DNA from: a virus
Virus record (IMG/VR): IMGVR_UViG_3300002483_000012
Span: 12,433 to 39,157 of that record
DNA: 26,725 nucleotides
Reading direction: 5' to 3' (one strand)
Below the pieces are notes generated by a model. That model was not told where the DNA came from. It saw only the letters and a program-made list of their open reading frames with translations, and ran no database searches. A program made the translations under genes and the position numbers. Positions 4,329 to 21,487 of this stretch are shown in pieces (the first letter of the stretch is position 1; every line of letters starts with the position of its first letter).

Positions 4329-5774
4329 TTATTTCAACCAATCACTAAACGTTTCTTCCCCTAATACTAAGTTAGCTATAGATTGTTTTTTACGTAACGC
4401 TTTTACTATCTTTTCGTCCACTGTCCGTTCACAAACTATATCAATATAAGTTACCTTATTAGTTTGACCTATACGATGTGCACGGTCTTCTGATTGTAAA
4501 CGTTTTTCAAGGTCATAGTTATTACTGTAATAAACTACTGTGCTGGCAGCAGTCAAAGTTATACCGTAGCCACCAGTTTGTGTATTACCAACAAAGAAAC
4601 GTAAATCACTATCAGGGTTTTGAAACTCATCAATCACCCTTTCACGTTCACTTTGTTCAACGCCACCGTAGTATGCACCTACACTACCATACCCATAATC
4701 TTCTCTAAGCATATTTACGATACGTTGTATATCATATCTATAATTAGCCCAAATGATTACTTTTCCGTCTGTTTCGTCTAAAATAGAGGACAATTCTGAG
4801 AGTCTTTGTGAAGGTATTTCGGTAGTAACTCCGTCATCTGTAACTGTGAATCCACATGATATTTGGTGTAAACGTATGATTTGAGTTATGACATGATTTA
4901 TGGTAACAGTCTTTTGATTTTTTAATAAAGTAACAGCAAAACGTTGTAATTCTTTATACGCTTTCTGTTGTTCTTTAGTCATTTCTATATTACGCTTGAT
5001 ATAAATCTTTTCTGGTAAATCTAAACAGTCTTTTTTCAAAACTCTATGACTAAATTTATTTAATAACTCATTTAGCTCGTCCATGTTTTTATAACCTGTT
5101 ACAAACTTGTATGTTCTACCTTGACCACGCTTTTCTACCATATCCGCATAACGTGCACGGAAACTATAAAAACTACTAAAGCCTAAAAGTGCAGGATTTA
5201 AAAACATACATTGACTGTATAAATCTAATGGACTTTTAGTAACAGGTGAGCCAGTGAGTATTCTTCTATAGTAAGCGTACTTACCTAGTCGTACACAGTT
5301 CGCTGTCCGTTTGGCTTCTGGGTTTTTGATTGTAGTACTTTCGTCTACTATAAATATAGTTTTATTTTGTTGAATATATCTACTGGCAAACTGTACACCT
5401 TTCTTAGTACTAAAAGCTTCTATATTCATAACTAGTATTTTTAAGTTATGGTCAATAGTAAAAACTTTCTGTAATTCTTTTTCAAACGTTTTAGTGTGGT
5501 TACTTTGCCATTTAACCATATCATACTCAATATGCTCAGGCATATGTGTTGGTATTTCTTTACTGACCCAGTTATCATAAACACCTTTCGGTGCTACTAT
5601 AAGTGCGTTATATACTTTACCATGATTATATAAATGAGCTATGTTGTCAATCACTACTTTTGATTTACCACACCCCATCTCCATAAATAGAGCGTACTCA
5701 TCTTTATCATGTGAAATTTCTAGAGCTTCAAGTTGATGCTCATAAGGCTGAGTCTTGAATTTAAAATCTGTCAT
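4329..5774 (-). CDS. SNF2-type superfamily 2 DNA helicase/translocase
   Basis: This 481-residue protein is an ATP-dependent dsDNA translocase of the SNF2 group. The motifs appear in order: a Q-like motif (PYEHQLEAL, about 10-18), Walker A MGCGKSK (33-39), Walker B with DES in place of DEAH/DExx (144-146, followed by IKN as in SNF2 proteins), motif III LTGSP (173-177), then a RecA2 domain with GGYGITLTAAS and the SNF2-typical arginine-finger motif RAHRIGQ (about 431-437). It is a minimal two-domain protein with no extra DNA-binding domain. Phage members of this family are thought to act in replication, recombination or fork remodelling. It is the only minus-strand gene here, convergent with the virion operon and divergent from the early operon. 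Its start is preceded by AGAGACAAAGAT rather than a strong Shine-Dalgarno sequence. Confidence 0.88.
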   Translation of the reverse strand: MTDFKFKTQPYEHQLEALEISHDKDEYALFMEMGCGKSKVVIDNIAHLYNHGKVYNALIVAPKGVYDNWVSKEIPTHMPEHIEYDMVKWQSNHTKTFEKELQKVFTIDHNLKILVMNIEAFSTKKGVQFASRYIQQNKTIFIVDESTTIKNPEAKRTANCVRLGKYAYYRRILTGSPVTKSPLDLYSQCMFLNPALLGFSSFYSFRARYADMVEKRGQGRTYKFVTGYKNMDELNELLNKFSHRVLKKDCLDLPEKIYIKRNIEMTKEQQKAYKELQRFAVTLLKNQKTVTINHVITQIIRLHQISCGFTVTDDGVTTEIPSQRLSELSSILDETDGKVIIWANYRYDIQRIVNMLREDYGYGSVGAYYGGVEQSERERVIDEFQNPDSDLRFFVGNTQTGGYGITLTAASTVVYYSNNYDLEKRLQSEDRAHRIGQTNKVTYIDIVCERTVDEKIVKALRKKQSIANLVLGEETFSDWLK

Positions 5775-10833: not shown

Positions 10834-11343
10834 ATGAATATATTTTATACTTATACTGATCCAGTGTTTGCCGCACAATCTTTACCAGATAAGCTAGTAG
10901 TTAAAATGCCTCTAGAGTCAGCTCAAATGCTTTCTACTGCTCAACGTTATTACAACGGTGATGACTACTGTGACGAGTTAGGTATTTATAAAACCGCTTA
11001 CCTTAATCACCCTTGTACTATATGGGCTAGAGAAAGCGCTGATAACTATAATTGGCTTTATCGACACTTTGTAGCTTTATGTGACGAGTACACTTATCGT
11101 TACGGTAAAGTACACGCAAGTGATACTAAGCTACGTAAACCGTTGTCAATTATTCCTGACACTATTCCTGACGTTGGTTTTACCCCTGTAGCACAAGCTA
11201 TGCCTGATCAGTACAAAGACTCTGACCCTGTGGTTGCCTACCGTAACTACCTAATAAATGAAAAACACTACGCTGAGTGGAATAAAAACAGGGCTAAACC
11301 TAACTGGTGGAACTTAGACTGGCAAACTAAGGAGTGCGCATGA
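10834..11343 (+). CDS. Conserved phage protein of unknown function in the base-modification cluster
   Basis: This 169-residue protein begins MNIFYTYTDPVFAAQSLPD and contains KLVVKMPLESAQMLSTAQRY (about 21-40), HPCTIWARESADNYNWLYRH, CDEYTYRYGKVHAS and AQAMPDQYKDSDPVVAYRNY, and ends in a Trp-rich segment. The set of conserved His, Glu, Arg and Tyr blocks looks enzymatic. The family is, to my recollection, widespread in phages and some bacteria without known function. It is the first gene of the modification cluster, behind CGGAGAAATT, and overlaps the kinase start by 4 bp (ATGA). Co-translation with the 5-hmdU DNA kinase makes a role in base modification or its regulation plausible. This is inference. 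Confidence 0.75.
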   Translation: MNIFYTYTDPVFAAQSLPDKLVVKMPLESAQMLSTAQRYYNGDDYCDELGIYKTAYLNHPCTIWARESADNYNWLYRHFVALCDEYTYRYGKVHASDTKLRKPLSIIPDTIPDVGFTPVAQAMPDQYKDSDPVVAYRNYLINEKHYAEWNKNRAKPNWWNLDWQTKECA

Positions 11344-12188
11344 TAGACCTAGCTCATGAAAGAGAAGAGGGTATAAAAAGATTTTTTAACTACATCAATG
11401 AACGCCATATGGTGTATCTTAGAAGGCAGAACGGTGTACCTTATCCGTGGACTAGTGACGCTATATTAACTGAGTTTAGTTTTTGTAATGTGTATCGTGA
11501 GCTTGATAAAGTCACTGAGTGGATAAGAGTAAACTGGAGAGAGCCTTATAGCGACCATCAAAATTTACCTTTCGCTATGTCCGTGGCTAGACAAATTAAT
11601 TGGCCAGACACTCTAGAGGAGATAGGCTTTCCTGAAACTTGGGAACCTGAAAAGGTGAAGGCTATAATGCAAGCTAGAAAAGACAGAGGCGAAAAAGTCT
11701 ATACAGGTGCTTACATGTTGACAGGCACGTTAGGTGGCACTAAAATAGAACAAACTGTAGATAAGATACTTACACCTTTATATGAACATCACCCACCTAT
11801 GATTACTTGGTCTTTACATGATACTTGGAAAAACTATCTACAACATAAAGGGTTTAGTGGTTTTATGGCTTATGAGGTAGTTACTGATTTACGTCATACT
11901 AAATGGTTAAGTACAGCAGAAGACATTATGACTTGGGCAAATCCTGGACCAGGAGCTAAACGTGGATTAAATAGGATACACCTAAGAGAACTAGAACAAA
12001 CAGTAAAGAAAGATCAATTAAACTTTGAGATGAAACAGTTACTAGATTATTCACCAGACTATCTTGAGAATCATATGCAACCTCTTGAGATGCGAGATAT
12101 TGAGCATTGTCTATGTGAGTTTGATAAGTATGAAAGGGTGCGTTTAGGTCAAGGTAGACCTCGCGCAAAATATAAACCACAACTATAG
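11340..12188 (+). CDS. 5-hydroxymethyl-dU DNA kinase family (formerly alpha-GPT-Pplase clade 2)
   Basis: This 282-residue protein matches the family first named alpha-glutamyl/putrescinyl-thymine pyrophosphorylase and later shown to phosphorylate 5-hydroxymethyl-dU in DNA. Conserved blocks are ERHMVYLRR (21-29), PWTSDAILTEFSFCNVYREL (36-55), NWPDTLEEIGFPETW, NPGPGAKRGLNRI (201-213) and the C-terminal LCEFDKYERVRLGQGRPR. All are family-typical as I remember it. The product would be 5-phosphomethyl-dU, an activated intermediate. The start at 11340 is preferred over an in-frame GTG at 11334 because AAGGAG (11329-11334) then sits 5 nt upstream and the start overlaps the previous stop (ATGA). No classical Walker A is obvious. 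Identification is by motif memory; exact substrate specificity is inferred. Confidence 0.82.
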   Translation: MIDLAHEREEGIKRFFNYINERHMVYLRRQNGVPYPWTSDAILTEFSFCNVYRELDKVTEWIRVNWREPYSDHQNLPFAMSVARQINWPDTLEEIGFPETWEPEKVKAIMQARKDRGEKVYTGAYMLTGTLGGTKIEQTVDKILTPLYEHHPPMITWSLHDTWKNYLQHKGFSGFMAYEVVTDLRHTKWLSTAEDIMTWANPGPGAKRGLNRIHLRELEQTVKKDQLNFEMKQLLDYSPDYLENHMQPLEMRDIEHCLCEFDKYERVRLGQGRPRAKYKPQL

Positions 12189-12197
12189 GAGAGTATT

Positions 12198-12971
12198 ATG
12201 AGAATTTATATTCCTACTAGGGGAAGAGCGGACAGACAAGTTACTTTATCTTTCTTTCCTGAAGAATTACGTAAAGAAGTAACGTTAGTTGTAGACCATG
12301 ATGAAGCTGACGAATATGGTCAGTATGATTGTCAAATTATGGTTTGTCCTGATACCGTTCACGACATAGCTACTAAACGCTTATACATACACGAAAATAC
12401 TGACGATAATAAAATTGTTATGTTAGATGATGACTTACGGTTTTATATACGTAAAGCTACTAATGATTGGCACCTACGTTATCTAGAGCCTGAGGAATAT
12501 CCTGCATTGTTCGGTTTACTTGATAAGTGGCTTGATGACTATGCCCATTGTGGCGTAAGCGCTAGGGAGGGTAATAACCGTGTTGAACATTTATCTGTAG
12601 AAAATACAAGGTACATGCGCGTGTTAGCGTATAACTTAGACATGTTTGAGGGTATTGAGATAGGTAGAGTTAAAGTTATGGAAGACTTTGACGTAAACCT
12701 TCAATTACTCAAGAAAGGGCTACCCAGTAAAATTAGTTATTACTATGCTCAAGGGCAAGGTAGTAGTAATGCTGCAGGTGGTTGTAGTGAGTGGCGTACT
12801 ATGGAAGTACAATCACAAGGAGCGGAGCGACTTAAAGAGTTACACCCAGAAGTTGTTGAAGTGGTAGAAAAAGAAACTAAAACAGCTTGGGGCGGTGCTA
12901 CTCGTAAAGACGTAAAAGTACAATGGAAAAAAGCATTCAAACTAGGAGCACAAAATGGCGAGTTATTCTAA
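12198..12971 (+). CDS. GT-A-fold glycosyltransferase, TAGT-like
   Basis: The 257-residue protein begins MRIYIPTRGRADRQVTL, the usual N-terminal nucleotide-sugar-binding strand of this group. A DxD-type metal site lies in VMLDDDL (D77-D79), and VMEDFDVNLQLLKKG (160-174) supplies the acidic ED motif typical of GT-A enzymes. A C-terminal part with GGCSEWRT and TRKDVKVQW follows. The pattern fits the TET/JBP-associated glycosyltransferases predicted to glycosylate hydroxymethyl-pyrimidines in DNA. The neighbouring 5-hmdU kinase and TS homologue support a DNA rather than cell-surface target. The sugar is unknown. It could alternatively glycosylate another acceptor. The gene has a good AGGAG site 5 nt upstream and overlaps the next gene by 17 bp. 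Confidence 0.75.
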   Translation: MRIYIPTRGRADRQVTLSFFPEELRKEVTLVVDHDEADEYGQYDCQIMVCPDTVHDIATKRLYIHENTDDNKIVMLDDDLRFYIRKATNDWHLRYLEPEEYPALFGLLDKWLDDYAHCGVSAREGNNRVEHLSVENTRYMRVLAYNLDMFEGIEIGRVKVMEDFDVNLQLLKKGLPSKISYYYAQGQGSSNAAGGCSEWRTMEVQSQGAERLKELHPEVVEVVEKETKTAWGGATRKDVKVQWKKAFKLGAQNGELF

Positions 12972-13176
12972 TATATTAATAGCGTATAAATCACAATTAG
13001 CTGGTGAGCGGGACGCAGTATCAATGAATCTTGAGGTACTTATAGATGAACCTATGAGTATACCTGAACACACTGACTTTATGACTGAGGTTGATAAGTT
13101 AATAGGGGAACTAGCTAACATACAAGAAAAAATAGAAATGACTGAGTTTCTTATAAAAGCTGCGGAGAAAAAATAA
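12955..13176 (+). CDS. Small helical protein of the modification cluster
   Basis: This 73-residue, mostly helical acidic protein has no cysteine, no membrane segment and no recognised motif. It starts within the end of the glycosyltransferase gene behind AGGAG and stops just before the GTG start of the TS homologue. Its conserved place between two modification enzymes suggests an accessory subunit, but no function can be assigned. Confidence 0.6.
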   Translation: MASYSNILIAYKSQLAGERDAVSMNLEVLIDEPMSIPEHTDFMTEVDKLIGELANIQEKIEMTEFLIKAAEKK

Positions 13177-14196
13177 GTGAAAATAATTAATTGTAGAAAC
13201 GTAAATGATGGTTTTATTAAAGGTATGGATTTACTCGGTAGATACAGAGAAGATGTAAAACCTAGTAGAGCAGGGGATGTTATTGAAGTACCAGAGCCTG
13301 TGGCTACTGTGTATGAAAACTCTACAGAAAGAGTACTATTTGAAGATGTGCGTAAAGCTAACCCTTTCTTTCATTTAATGGAAAGTCTTTGGATGCTGTG
13401 TGGTGCTAACGACCTTGAGTATGTAAAAACTTACAATAAGCGTATGGAAGAATATAGTGATGACGGTATTACTCTTCAAGGTGCTTATGGTTTTAGGTGG
13501 CGAGAACACTTTGGTGGTGATCAGTTATCTGTAATTATAAATCGGTTACGTAACGACAATACTGATAGAAGGTCTGTATTACAAATGTGGGATCCGTTAG
13601 TAGACTTAGATGCACATAGTAAAGATGTGCCTTGTAATACTGTTATTTATTTTAAGGTAAGAGAGGGCGAACTAGATATGACAGTAAGTTGTAGGTCAAA
13701 CGATTGTATCTGGGGTACGTTTGGTGCTAACGTAGTTCACATGTCCATACTACAGGAATATATGGCTTATGGTATAGGTGTAAGAATAGGTACATATACT
13801 CAAGTGAGTGATAGTTTACATGCATATACAGATGTGTTTAACCCTATGTATGACGAACTAGCAAGTCAAGATGCTTTTGATTTTTTTAGTCAGTTTAATA
13901 GCGCTAATCCTTATAGCAATAAAGCTATTAACCCTTATCCTTTAATCAATACAAACATAGAAACATGGGAAATAGACCTAAGTAGGTTTATGAGACGTGC
14001 ACCAATGCAAGATGTAGACTTTGTTGACCCCTTCTTTTATGAAGTGGCAGTGCCTCTACAGGATGCTTGGCATTTATATAAGAGCGGAGAGTATGATGAA
14101 GCGCTAATCGAAGTTCAAGGTTGTTCAGCTACAGACTGGGCTACTGCTGGCTACGATTGGTTAAATAGAGCTATAACTAATAAGGAAAGTAAATGA
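13177..14196 (+). CDS. Thymidylate synthase homologue, candidate dUMP 5-hydroxymethylase
   Basis: This 339-residue protein has the folate-dependent thymidylate synthase fold. Visible motifs are QGAYGFRWR (101-109), TDRRSVLQMWDP with phosphate-binding R131/R132, the catalytic cysteine C153 in DVPCN, CRSNDCIWG (172-180) with R173/S174/D176, GANVVHMS with N185, and SDSLHAY (211-217). An Asn rather than Asp at the base-recognition position favours dUMP over dCMP. The C-terminus is longer and unlike that of cellular ThyA, and the RSNDxxWG...GANxVH pattern is that of phage homologues often linked to modified thymine. Beside a 5-hmdU DNA kinase, 5-hydroxymethyl-dUMP synthesis is more likely than plain dTMP synthesis; sequence alone does not settle it. 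The start is GTG behind GGAG; ATGA overlap links it to the nuclease gene. Confidence 0.85.
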   Translation: MKIINCRNVNDGFIKGMDLLGRYREDVKPSRAGDVIEVPEPVATVYENSTERVLFEDVRKANPFFHLMESLWMLCGANDLEYVKTYNKRMEEYSDDGITLQGAYGFRWREHFGGDQLSVIINRLRNDNTDRRSVLQMWDPLVDLDAHSKDVPCNTVIYFKVREGELDMTVSCRSNDCIWGTFGANVVHMSILQEYMAYGIGVRIGTYTQVSDSLHAYTDVFNPMYDELASQDAFDFFSQFNSANPYSNKAINPYPLINTNIETWEIDLSRFMRRAPMQDVDFVDPFFYEVAVPLQDAWHLYKSGEYDEALIEVQGCSATDWATAGYDWLNRAITNKESK

Positions 14197-14873
14197 GCAA
14201 CATACCGCAGTGGTCTTATAGTAGACTAAAAACGTTTGAAGATTGTCCCAAGAAAGCACAGTATGCGTTTATACAACGTATTAAAGAACCTGGAAATAAA
14301 GCTATGGACAGAGGTAAAGATATTCATAAGTTATGTGAAGAGTATATCCGTGGACGTTTTGATGAGATACCTAAACAACTTAGCGACTTTGAAGAAGCTT
14401 TTGATTTATTAAAAGAACTTCACTTAAAAGGTCATGTACTTTGTGAGGGTGATTGGGCTTTTGATACTGATTGGAAACCTACAGGTTGGTTCGATACTGA
14501 TACATGGGGTAGAGCTAAAGTAGATGCCTTTGTACATATTGAAGGTGAAAACAATGCTAGAGTTATTGACTTTAAAACTGGTCGGTACGATGGTAACCAA
14601 GAAGGGCATAGAGAACAGTGTGAGCTTTATGCGAGTGTAGTATTTGAAAGGCTACCTGAATTAGAAACTATAACTACTGAGTTATGGTATCTTGACCATG
14701 GTAAGCTAGACAGGTATCAATACGATAAGCCTACAGTGGATGGTAAGCGTGAGCGTTTAAATCAAAGGGCAGTAGATATGACCACAGCTACTGAGTTCCC
14801 TGCTAAACCCTCACAGTTTAAATGTAAGTGGTGTTATTATGGTAAACAAAATATTTGCCCTAATAGAATTTAA
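14193..14873 (+). CDS. Cas4/RecB-like PD-(D/E)XK nuclease with Fe-S cysteines
   Basis: This 226-residue exonuclease-like protein has the RecB-family core: SYSRLKTFEDCPKKA at the start, GKDIHKL with H45, D111 (KVDAF), VIDFKTG with D126 and K128, and the QxxxY motif Q142-Y146. One N-terminal cysteine (C18) and three C-terminal ones (C211, C214, C222) match the split 4Fe-4S ligand pattern of Cas4 and AddB. No CRISPR or cas gene is nearby, so the role is probably phage recombination or DNA-end processing with the neighbouring polymerase. It starts by ATGA overlap with the TS homologue behind AAGGAAAG. Confidence 0.88.
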   Translation: MSNIPQWSYSRLKTFEDCPKKAQYAFIQRIKEPGNKAMDRGKDIHKLCEEYIRGRFDEIPKQLSDFEEAFDLLKELHLKGHVLCEGDWAFDTDWKPTGWFDTDTWGRAKVDAFVHIEGENNARVIDFKTGRYDGNQEGHREQCELYASVVFERLPELETITTELWYLDHGKLDRYQYDKPTVDGKRERLNQRAVDMTTATEFPAKPSQFKCKWCYYGKQNICPNRI

Positions 14874-14884
14874 TAGGAGATAAT

Positions 14885-15199
14885 ATGTCTGCGGACTTTG
14901 ATAAAATAGAAAAGATAGCTATGCGTGATATTGCTCAGCTTCAACGTGCCGAGAAAAGTTACGGTGATAGTTGGCGTAAGCGTGGTGGCGTTGGTGCTTT
15001 TATGATGTTAGCACGTAAGTTTGATAGGATAGAGAATCAGTCTCAAGCCTGTCATTGGGATGTGTTTGGCGCCATACTTGATGATATGTCGTCTACAGGT
15101 ATATTAGATGACATACGTGATTTACGCTGTTACCTGTTATTAGTTGAAGAGTACGCTACTCGTCTACATCAGGAGTTAAGAAACGAACATGCAGAGTAG
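14885..15199 (+). CDS. Small helical phage protein, possibly all-alpha NTP-PPase/Nmad1-like
   Basis: This 104-residue helical protein contains AEKSYGDSWRKRGGVGAFMM and later LDDIRDLRCYLLLVEEY. The 'YGDSWRKRGGVGAFMMLARKFDR' type block (about 26-48) recalls the DUF1599/nucleotide-modification-associated domain, an all-alpha MazG-like fold, but the acidic metal site is not clearly visible. It lies between the nuclease and polymerase genes, with AGGAGATAAT before the start, and overlaps the polymerase gene by 11 bp. A nucleotide-pool role related to DNA modification is possible and unproven. Confidence 0.65.
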   Translation: MSADFDKIEKIAMRDIAQLQRAEKSYGDSWRKRGGVGAFMMLARKFDRIENQSQACHWDVFGAILDDMSSTGILDDIRDLRCYLLLVEEYATRLHQELRNEHAE

Positions 15200-17075
15200 T
15201 ATGTTTGTAGGTGATAGTGACTGGGTGCCACCTAGTTCTTTACCCAAACTCTCTAACTATAAAGAAGTAGCTATTGACTTAGAAACTTACGATCCGTTAC
15301 TCATGTCCCATGGACCGTCATGGGCTTTTGAGAATAAAGGTTACGTAACAGGTATAGCAGTAGCTACTGAGGACTTTGCTATCTACCTACCTATTCAACA
15401 TTTAGGTGGTGGTAACTTAGACAAGCGAGTCGTTATAAACTGGATGAATAAAGAGTTCAGCCATAATAACGATAAAGTATTTCATAACTCACTGTACGAT
15501 TTAGGTTGGCTCAGACGTTTAGGTGTTGAGGTGAAAGGTAAGATTCACGATACTATGTTTGCTGCCCCACTCGTAGATGAGAATCAGTATGGTTACTCAT
15601 TAAATAAGTTAGGTAATAGGTACGTAGGTGAAGTAAAAGATGAAAGCCTATTAGAAGATGCAGCTAAAGCCTATGGGTTAAATCCTAAAAGTGAGATGTA
15701 TAAACTACCTGCTAAATATGTTGGACCATATGCTGAGCAAGATGCAGCACTCACTTTAAAACTTTGGGGAATACTAAAAGAATTACTAGTAAAAGAAAGC
15801 GCTGAAAAGATATATGAATTAGAAACTGGGCTCATACCTATATTATTAGACATGCGTTGGAAAGGTGTACGTGTTGATTTAGATAAAGCACAAAGAATAA
15901 GTAAGAAACTAGAAAGTGAAGAAAACAAAATACTCAAAGGTATTTATGACGAGTACGGTGTAGCACCTGATCTATGGGCTGCAGCATCTGTTGCTACTGT
16001 GTTTGATAGAGCTGGGTTAAGTTATCCTAGGACACAAAAAACTAACGCACCTAGTTTTACTTCTAGTTGGTTAGAAGGACATGAGCATAAACTAGGTCAA
16101 GACATAGCTAGAGCTAGGCAACTCAATAAAGCTAGAACTACCTTTATAGATAACATGATACTTGACCATAACGTCAACGGTAGAATACATGGGGAACTAC
16201 ATCCTTTGCGCAGTGACCGTGGTGGTACAGTTACTGGTAGATTCAGTAGTAGTAAACCTAACCTTCAGCAAGTGCCAGCTAGACACGATGAGATAGGACC
16301 TCTGATAAGAAGTATTTTTATACCAGAAGAAGGTATGCACTGGGGAGCTTTTGATTACTCTCAACAAGAACCAAGACTTACCGTTCACTATGCCTATAAA
16401 ACTGAACAAGAAGGCGCAGACGATGCAGTTGATGCATATAAAAATAAAGATGCAGACTTTCATCAGGTAGTGGCTGATATGGCTAACATAAGTCGTAAGG
16501 AAGCTAAAATAATAAATCTAGGTCTTAGTTACGGTATGGGTAAGGACAAACTAATTAAACAGCTAGATATATCCCCTCAGGAAGCTGAGGAACTGTTTGA
16601 TACGTATCATAGCCGAGTACCTTTTATAAAAGGTTTGCGTGACCAGTGTGCTAGGCTAGGAGCTAATAGAGGCTATATAACTACTGTGTTAGGACGTAGG
16701 TGTAGGTTTAATTTATATGAACCTAGATATGAGTTCGGCAGTATGCCTTTACCTTATTCAGAAGCTTTGGAAAAATATGGTCAGGACATTAAACGTTCCT
16801 ACACCTATAAAGCTATGAACAGACTCATACAAGGCTCAGCAGCAGACATGACTAAAAAGGCTATGGTAGAACTATATAAAGAAGGTATCTTAGCTCATAC
16901 TCAAATACATGATGAGCTAGATATTTCAGTTGATTCAGTAGAAACTTGTAAGAAGATAATTGAAGTTATGGCAGACTGTGTTCCTCTAGTTGTACCTAAT
17001 AAAGTTGATGCTGAGATAGGGCAAAGCTGGGGTGAAGCTGTTAAAAATTATAAGGAGTATTTTAATGTCGCATAG
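15189..17075 (+). CDS. polA: Family A DNA polymerase with 3'-5' exonuclease (Leu762 type)
   Basis: This 628-residue replicative polymerase has an intact proofreading domain: Exo I AIDLETYD (D30, E32), Exo II NSLYDLGWL (D104) and Exo III YAEQD (Y181, D185). Polymerase motif A is FDYSQQEPRL (D389), motif B is RKEAKIINLGLSYG (436-449) and motif C is QIHDELD (D575, E576). There is no 5'-3' nuclease domain, as usual in phages. The position equal to Phe762 of E. coli Pol I is Leu444, a state common in virioplankton polymerases. The start at 15189 overlaps the previous gene by 11 bp; AGGAG lies 13 nt upstream, so an alternative ATG at 15201 cannot be excluded. Confidence 0.96.
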   Translation: MQSSMFVGDSDWVPPSSLPKLSNYKEVAIDLETYDPLLMSHGPSWAFENKGYVTGIAVATEDFAIYLPIQHLGGGNLDKRVVINWMNKEFSHNNDKVFHNSLYDLGWLRRLGVEVKGKIHDTMFAAPLVDENQYGYSLNKLGNRYVGEVKDESLLEDAAKAYGLNPKSEMYKLPAKYVGPYAEQDAALTLKLWGILKELLVKESAEKIYELETGLIPILLDMRWKGVRVDLDKAQRISKKLESEENKILKGIYDEYGVAPDLWAAASVATVFDRAGLSYPRTQKTNAPSFTSSWLEGHEHKLGQDIARARQLNKARTTFIDNMILDHNVNGRIHGELHPLRSDRGGTVTGRFSSSKPNLQQVPARHDEIGPLIRSIFIPEEGMHWGAFDYSQQEPRLTVHYAYKTEQEGADDAVDAYKNKDADFHQVVADMANISRKEAKIINLGLSYGMGKDKLIKQLDISPQEAEELFDTYHSRVPFIKGLRDQCARLGANRGYITTVLGRRCRFNLYEPRYEFGSMPLPYSEALEKYGQDIKRSYTYKAMNRLIQGSAADMTKKAMVELYKEGILAHTQIHDELDISVDSVETCKKIIEVMADCVPLVVPNKVDAEIGQSWGEAVKNYKEYFNVA

Positions 17076-20453: not shown

Positions 20454-20952
20454 ACAAGAAAAATTTGCACAGAACGTCGCAAAAGGAATGTCGAAAAAAG
20501 ACGCTGCGATAGATGCTGGGTACAGTGAAAAGAATGCTGTCAAAGCAGGGTATGTTTTAGCAAGTGACGACAACCCACTAGTACAGCAAAAGATTCAAGC
20601 CTTACAAGAAAAAGCCAGTAAGAAAGTGGAGCTAGATTTAGCTACTCACCTTACAGACTTAAAAGATATACGTGAAGGAGCTATGCGTAATGGAGCATGG
20701 TCTGCTGCAGTGGCTGCGGAAGTGGCTAGAGGTAAAGCAGCAGGACTGTACGTCAACCGTAGTGAGTTGACCGTCAACCGTGTGGACGTTATGTCAAAAG
20801 AAGAAGTACTAGAACGTATGAAACAACTCTACCATGATACAGGTGGGATACTACCGACTGGTAAAGTTATAGAACTAGAGAAAGAAGAAACAGAACATGT
20901 CGAATATACACTACCTAAAAGGAGCGCTGAAACAGTTCAATCCGACGTTTGA
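20431..20952 (+). CDS. terS: Terminase small subunit
   Basis: The protein has 173 residues from the ATG at 20431 (KKKLTPKQEKFAQNVAKGMS). The N-terminal helix-turn-helix LTPKQEKFAQNVAKGMSKKD followed by AAIDAGYS is the signature of small terminase subunits (Terminase_2 type), which recognise packaging sites and recruit the large subunit. A helical oligomerisation part follows (DLATHLTDLKDIREGAMRNG), then an acidic tail. No large subunit is in the window. A TTG at 20413 is an alternative start; no ribosome site is seen for either. It overlaps the next gene by 56 bp. Confidence 0.85.
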   Translation: MKKKLTPKQEKFAQNVAKGMSKKDAAIDAGYSEKNAVKAGYVLASDDNPLVQQKIQALQEKASKKVELDLATHLTDLKDIREGAMRNGAWSAAVAAEVARGKAAGLYVNRSELTVNRVDVMSKEEVLERMKQLYHDTGGILPTGKVIELEKEETEHVEYTLPKRSAETVQSDV

Positions 20953-21487
20953 CCGTTGGGACGAACCTGTTGTACGTAAAACTAAGAACGGTATGGTTTA
21001 TGGTAGACCGTCCCGTGGCTTTGGTGATGCACCGTTTGAGTATGCTGGTAAGCATATGGATCCTGAACCGTGGACTAACAGGTATTTCATGCCCAGTATA
21101 AAAACTGCAGCTGAGGAATTAGCTTCTGCCATATACGATAAAGAAGTCAAGTTTACTTTTTGTTTGTGTGGGTTATACCCTGATGAGAAAGGCATACCCC
21201 ACCACAGTGATACTGTACCCACACCAGAAGATATCGTTGTATCAGTGAGTTACGGTGCTCCACGTGTGTTTACTTGGAGAAGATATCAAAACCCTATCAA
21301 AGATCATACTAACACTAGTGACATATATTTTAAAGAGAACTTTTTAAAAGAAGAAACTCACTATATTCTAGAACATGGGGACGTCATAATGTTTGACGGC
21401 TGTAGTCAATTACGCAGTACTCATGCAGTACCAGACCTACCCATGGCAGAAGAAAGAATAAACTTAACATTTAGGACAGGATTATGA
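20897..21487 (+). CDS. AlkB-like 2-oxoglutarate/Fe(II) dioxygenase
   Basis: This 196-residue protein shows the double-stranded beta-helix iron site H103-x-D105 (in PHHSDTVP) with distal H176 (RSTHAVP), and the AlkB-specific 2-oxoglutarate motif RINLTFR (187-193), close to the E. coli AlkB RYNLTFR. NRYFMP and YGAPRVFTWR are also AlkB-like. AlkB enzymes oxidatively remove alkyl groups from DNA or RNA bases. In this phage it may repair the genome or demethylate bases as counter-defence; a role on hydroxymethylated bases is speculative. The start lies inside the terminase gene (56-bp overlap). A later internal start would lose the conserved N-terminus. Confidence 0.85.
   Translation: MSNIHYLKGALKQFNPTFDRWDEPVVRKTKNGMVYGRPSRGFGDAPFEYAGKHMDPEPWTNRYFMPSIKTAAEELASAIYDKEVKFTFCLCGLYPDEKGIPHHSDTVPTPEDIVVSVSYGAPRVFTWRRYQNPIKDHTNTSDIYFKENFLKEETHYILEHGDVIMFDGCSQLRSTHAVPDLPMAEERINLTFRTGL

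Follow-up and report, generated by a model that had tools for sequence, protein, structure and literature searches.

The stretch of DNA analysed here (the window; 26,725 bases) corresponds to bases 12433-39157 of the 59,718-base virus record IMGVR_UViG_3300002483_000012. At positions 10834-14196 lies a cassette of five genes whose probable role is to produce a modified thymine and to glycosylate it. One of the genes was first taken for that of a DNA kinase; its product more likely assists by presenting the base to the modifying enzyme of each phage. All five open reading frames (ORFs) were recovered on the + strand at the predicted position; together with two flanking genes they are as follows.

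10834-11343, +: Pyr_excise-like protein, 169 aa (PF03013, 9e-10; phrog_624, 5e-58)
11334-12188, +: PF18723 helical protein (HMUDK_hel / 'aGPT-Pplase1'), 284 aa, GTG start (PF18723, 2.6e-47)
12198-12971, +: TAGT-type GT-A glycosyltransferase, 257 aa (PF20691, 1.6e-18; phrog_842, 6e-51)
12955-13176, +: 73-aa protein (phrog_1811, 1e-8)
13177-14196, +: thymidylate synthase (TS) homologue, predicted hydroxymethyl-dUMP synthase, 339 aa, GTG start (PF00303, 7.5e-21; phrog_5131, 6e-115)
14193-14873, +: PD-(D/E)XK exonuclease (PF12705, 6e-21)
15189-17075, +: DNA polymerase A, flanking the cassette (tblastn, 55% to the HTVC023P-type phage 023Pt_psg01)

The genes had been described as joined by four-base or short overlaps. 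Overlaps of 10 and 17 bases were indeed found at the first and third junctions, whereas the second is a gap of 9 bases and the genes at the fourth abut; a 4-base overlap then leads into the exonuclease gene.

The TS homologue has Cys153 and Asn185 in place, as had been noted, and in an alignment of 172 such homologues, nearly all of them from loci with a helical gene, 171 carry both residues, with Asn at the uracil position. The protein is 45% identical over 100% of its length to gp58 of phage M6, in which bases derived from 5-hydroxymethyl-dU (5-hmdU) are proven; on account of this full-length identity and of Asn185 it is predicted to hydroxymethylate dUMP. The only TS-superfamily gene found in the record is of this Asn (uracil) type. 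The glycosyltransferase, in which DDD and ED motifs had been recognized, was assigned to the TAGT family; the motifs are D77-D78-D79 and E162-D163, and the predicted model has a GT-A/GT2-like fold (Z 12-13) with D77-D79 in the usual place. These aspartates are invariant in alignment A3 (D76-78 in the numbering of that alignment), and the enzyme is predicted to glycosylate 5-hmdU in DNA. A uracil-type TS related end to end to that of M6, together with a DNA-type glycosyltransferase, agrees with the original prediction of thymidine hypermodification via 5-hmdU.

The DNA polymerase A of the record, used as a lineage marker, is 49-55% identical to those of HTVC023P-type pelagiphages and of the freshwater phage DSL-LC04, and the window is placed by its sequence within the wider HTVC023P-type pelagiphage lineage, as a marine phage. 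As the flanks of the window encode terminase, portal, head and tail proteins, the record looks near-complete; an exact terminal repeat was searched for in the 59,718 bases and none was found.

The helical PF18723 protein

The helical protein was matched to PF18723 over the full domain (162 bits against a cut-off of 25) and is 41% identical to M6 gp55 over 94%. It had been described as a member of the 5-hmdU DNA kinase family; the family match stands, whereas the kinase reading does not. The Pfam name '5-hmdU DNA kinase' covers two families, the P-loop family PF18748 and the helical family PF18723 ('5-hmdU DNA kinase, helical domain'). In phage M6 these are neighbours, gp54 being a PF18748 protein with the P-loop GCNGSGKT and gp55 a PF18723 protein without one; the two genes are ∼49 kb apart in Salmonella phage ViI, where the one for PF18748 is next to thyA. 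The Walker A motif [AG]xxxxGK[ST] was sought in the protein encoded at 11334-12188 and is absent. Since the matched family is helical and no Walker A motif is present, 'kinase' does not follow from the PF18723 match. Phage M6 has a proven 5-hmdU DNA kinase activity (PMC6449724, PMC7653180). A paper that summarizes Lee 2018 for a ViI relative (PMC6336734) names a kinase beside the dUMP hydroxymethyltransferase and lists the pyrophosphorylase-type proteins apart.

P-loop kinases of families PF18748, PF18751 and PF02223 gave no match anywhere in the 59.7-kb record (which may be incomplete), and the sole noteworthy ORF with a canonical P-loop is a UvrD helicase. Searches of the same record for an amino-acid:DNA transferase (ADDT), for radical-SAM genes and for TET genes were likewise negative. 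The lack of an aminoacyl-transfer enzyme, first remarked for the window, thus extends to the whole record, which has neither the P-loop kinase nor the ADDT of M6-type amino-acid thymidine hypermodification. Because no kinase was found in the protein or in the record, neither the competing products nor the sugar-phosphate adduct suggested by the original prediction needs to be invoked; an unelaborated sugar ether of 5-hmdU would be the simpler product.

An AlphaFold2 model of the helical protein, computed on 44 relatives, is all-helical with a pLDDT of 95.4. On VIA re-alignment to solved chains the first match was the phage 5-PmdU glycinyltransferase PUGT (8z2n; Z 11.5, 218 residues, 3.8 Å); the PUGT entries (8z2n/8z2m) were followed by archaeal 8-oxoguanine glycosylases at Z ∼10 (3knt, 10.6) and by many other helix-hairpin-helix (HhH) glycosylases at Z 8-11. 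The matches are suggestive of an HhH DNA-glycosylase type of fold without a P-loop. No relative was found in the PDB by sequence, whether the query was the helical protein, M6 gp55 or an alignment profile. Across 13 diverse relatives, with kinases, glycosyltransferases and methyltransferases among their partners, 14 residues are invariant (R24, F50, R55, D58, N89, F177, D185, G205-P206-G207, C261, E262, K265 and Y266), and the GPG and C-E-x-x-K-Y motifs are invariant columns in alignments A1 and A2.

Enzymes encoded beside the helical gene

PF18723 loci (given L numbers) were gathered from public virus contigs and phage records, and other genes within 7 kb were scored on all six-frame ORFs. 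Because the queries were window-like and M6-like, the counts describe the sample and not nature; a scan of genome contigs yielded three relatives only. IMG/VR has at least 579 PF18723 loci. In nearly all loci the helical gene and the TS homologue are constant and the adjoining gene varies. The occupants of this slot were as follows.

P-loop kinase and ADDT: M6-like phages
TAGT: the window lineage
TAGT and SPASM radical SAM enzyme: L125-type loci
GT4 (GT-B glycosyltransferase): L052, L113, L129
Class-I methyltransferase: L057-type loci
FkbM methyltransferase: L062
Mixture: L114

Among 83 distinct helical proteins, a kinase alone was found beside 16 and another transferase alone beside 61, with both classes present in one case. 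This alternation is significant by Fisher's test (p = 6e-12) and stays so after clustering at 65% (2e-4) and at 50% (0.008). On a tree of 69 rows, from which the longest branches were left out, the partner class changes at least 11 times. A swap in place is seen between L113, with a GT-B enzyme (GT4), and L106/L108, with TAGT, the helical proteins being 79% and the polymerases ∼80% identical. GT133 was considered as a separate partner class and rejected, as its proteins align over their full length with the GT4 group; for this reason L133 versus L148 was not counted as a swap. Conversely, 72 of the 76 close TAGT loci carry the helical gene, the other four being short fragments of 6-7 kb.

Several slots hold further enzymes. 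A class-I methyltransferase lies upstream of the helical gene, in the position of the kinase or glycosyltransferase, in L057 (7141-7983), L056-L061 and L190-L193, which are 60-kb relatives, and a 5-methoxymethyl-dU product is conceivable for these loci. An FkbM-type methyltransferase stands beside the helical gene, alone or with TAGT or GT4, in L062 (8776-9498), L194, L106, L108, L113, L139 and L187. Radical SAM enzymes of the SPASM or B12-binding kind join TAGT in L125 (7706-8740) and its relatives, in L146 (7855-9189) and in L114 (9097-11160), where GT61 is also present with TAGT; these additions suggest further sculpted sugars.

Proposed pathway and alternatives

On balance, and with modest confidence, the cassette is taken for a thymidine hypermodification system of the glycosyltransferase type, in which base presentation falls to the helical protein and sugar transfer to TAGT. 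In the first step the TS homologue, judged by homology and by Asn185, would yield 5-hydroxymethyl-dUMP, which would be charged by host kinases and incorporated as 5-hmdU by the phage polymerase; the DNA polymerase A encoded at 15189-17075 is expected to copy DNA containing 5-hmdU. The helical protein would then bind 5-hmdU in DNA and expose its hydroxymethyl group without ATP, and TAGT, as its family suggests, would attach to this group the sugar of a host nucleotide-sugar (probably UDP-glucose). The product would be glycosyl-5-hmdU, a base-J-like nucleoside that protects the DNA of the phage against nucleases. Related phages would pair the helical protein with another enzyme in the slot, be it the P-loop kinase of the M6 type, a GT-B glycosyltransferase or O-methyltransferases; serving such varied enzymes, the helical protein would be a general 5-hmdU-presenting partner and not a kinase. 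The wider proposal, that PF18723 is a universal 5-hmdU-presenting subunit around which phages swap the adjoining group transferase (kinase, GT-A, GT-B or methyltransferases), is put forward tentatively, as possible and somewhat short of probable.

Several observations weigh against a presenting role. Foldseek gave no significant match for the helical-protein model, the HhH fold being seen only by VIA re-alignment, and there the Z score of 11.5 is moderate and below the safe level for helical matches. The profile comparison of PF18723 with ADDT is weak, so that common descent of the two, although suggested by the fold, is unproven by sequence. Five of the 83 loci have neither partner class, and four loci show no recognized partner within 7 kb; a search for proteins in which the helical domain is fused to a transferase found none, nor was any physical interaction found. 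The weightiest objection comes from the complete circular 40-kb genome of ctUhy936 (MW202897, L065), which encodes a 43%-identical TAGT and a uracil-type TS and has no PF18723 gene; TAGT may therefore not need the helical protein and may act independently of it in some phages.

The alternative that survives best is that the helical protein is a separate HhH-fold enzyme of DNA modification or editing, for instance a PUGT-like transferase, or a glycosylase with unmodified or damaged bases as its target, and that TAGT glycosylates 5-hmdU alone. Its nearest solved fold is that of a transferase, followed by true glycosylases, a catalytic role is conceivable for the invariant acidic residues and for those of C-E-x-x-K-Y, and ctUhy936 does without the protein. 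This explanation is nevertheless considered unlikely: the helical gene is kept beside kinases, glycosyltransferases and methyltransferases, whose chemistries are unrelated, and a shared step fits this pattern better than one fixed extra product.

A 5-hmdU DNA kinase activity of the helical protein itself, with phosphate and sugar competing for or combining on one hydroxymethyl group, is very unlikely. The Pfam name of PF18723 and the activity proven for M6 speak for such a role, whereas the protein has no P-loop, M6 has a separate P-loop protein (gp54) in PF18748, kinases and pyrophosphorylase-type proteins are kept apart in PMC6336734, and PF18748 kinases almost never co-occur with other transferases. 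It is also highly improbable that the genes are neighbours outside any joint pathway, with a TS homologue producing ordinary dTMP and a TAGT directed at cytosine or another target. In T6-like phages the substrate of TAGT is indeed glucosylated hydroxymethylcytosine (PMC13216743, PMC13390438), but the search of the record for TET was negative, the one TS-superfamily gene found there is of the uracil type and of a family common to the window and M6, and the synteny of helical gene, TAGT and TS is conserved in dozens of loci.

The proposed base-presenting system resembles M6/YuA/PaMx11-type hypermodification (Lee 2018; Flodman 2019, PMC6449724) in having a uracil-type TS and a PF18723 protein beside DNA polymerase A, and differs from it in that TAGT takes the place of the P-loop kinase, ADDT and radical SAM enzyme. 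The T6/T2 TAGT (beta-glucosyl-HMC-alpha-glucosyltransferase) and the TET-linked TAGT share the PF20691 family and the GT-A fold with the window enzyme, but the known ones act on cytosine; many solitary TAGT homologues are of unassigned role (PMC13216743). In the isolated Brevibacterium phage LuckyBarnes, the uninterrupted series gp38-gp41 comprises TS, two copies of TAGT and a PF18723 protein, and a search of its genome for PF18748, PF18751 and ADDT was negative; it differs in host, in backbone, in the two TAGT copies and in a helical protein only 27% identical. The predicted product is that of kinetoplastids, glucosyl-5-hydroxymethyluracil (base J), which arises there when T is oxidized by TET-like JBP and a glucosyltransferase then acts, whereas here 5-hmdU would enter during replication. 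A thymidylate synthase domain and one named '5-hydroxymethyluracil kinase' occur in bacterial defence systems that have been validated (PMC13092281).

The gene set itself is already known from HTVC023P-type pelagiphages, in which TS, aG/PT-PPlase1 and a glucosyltransferase occur together and were read as M6-like, possibly with a broader function (Wittmers et al. 2022, PMC9599517); the missing kinase and the interchangeable slot are not discussed in the relevant passages of that paper. Glucosylated 5-hmdU had not been reported in phages as of PMC6449724, and a text search for a later report found none. No report of the missing kinase or of an interchangeable PF18723 slot was found in the literature searched, the main pathway papers being outside its coverage. 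Work by Lee in 2021 reportedly describes permutations of hypermodification genes in metagenomes, and prior notice of the interchangeable-slot pattern is therefore possible.

If the proposed pathway is correct, a widespread marine lineage would carry base-J-like DNA without TET chemistry, and a family that bears the name 'kinase' would supply a common base-presenting module, the partner enzyme setting the modification; a misleading annotation would be corrected and the modification chemistry could be read from the slot gene. Were PF18723 a universal presenter, many unseen thymine ethers would be expected in phage DNA, including glycosyl-5-hmdU here and methoxymethyl-dU in the methyltransferase lineages.

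Neighbouring genes and related phages

The first protein of the cassette, previously described as unknown, belongs to the Pyr_excise family and is a relative within the T4 endonuclease V superfamily; as the phrog_624 Pyr_excise family occurs in 604 phage records, the gene is not specific to hypermodification. The 73-aa phrog_1811 protein is missing in many relatives, for example from the cassettes of L022, L028 and L032. When the five cluster proteins were searched against NCBIfam, no useful model was obtained for four of them. The exonuclease is a flanking replication gene and does not clearly belong to the pathway. In MW574966 and OR003939 the helicase-polymerase interval is without the cassette.

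Elsewhere in the window, an AlkB-like 2-oxoglutarate-Fe(II) oxygenase (PF13532) is encoded at 20897-21487; it occurs also in L024 (6900-7478) and is near or adjoins the cassette in many relatives. A SNF2-family helicase at 4329-5774 (−) is the sole long minus-strand gene of the window. The genome of ctUhy936 has an HD-domain gene in addition to its TAGT and TS genes. In Microbacterium phage BouleyBill (L071) a PF18751 P-loop kinase lies directly upstream of PF18723, and the TS homologue has Asp instead of Asn at the uracil/cytosine position, in a local alignment that is uncertain; this system is possibly a cytosine version. The genome of Rhodococcus phage Tonitrus (L278), which is without PF18723, carries a TET-like gene (below the Pfam cut-off), ADDT and a PF18751 kinase, and the kinase is followed by a 293-aa protein.

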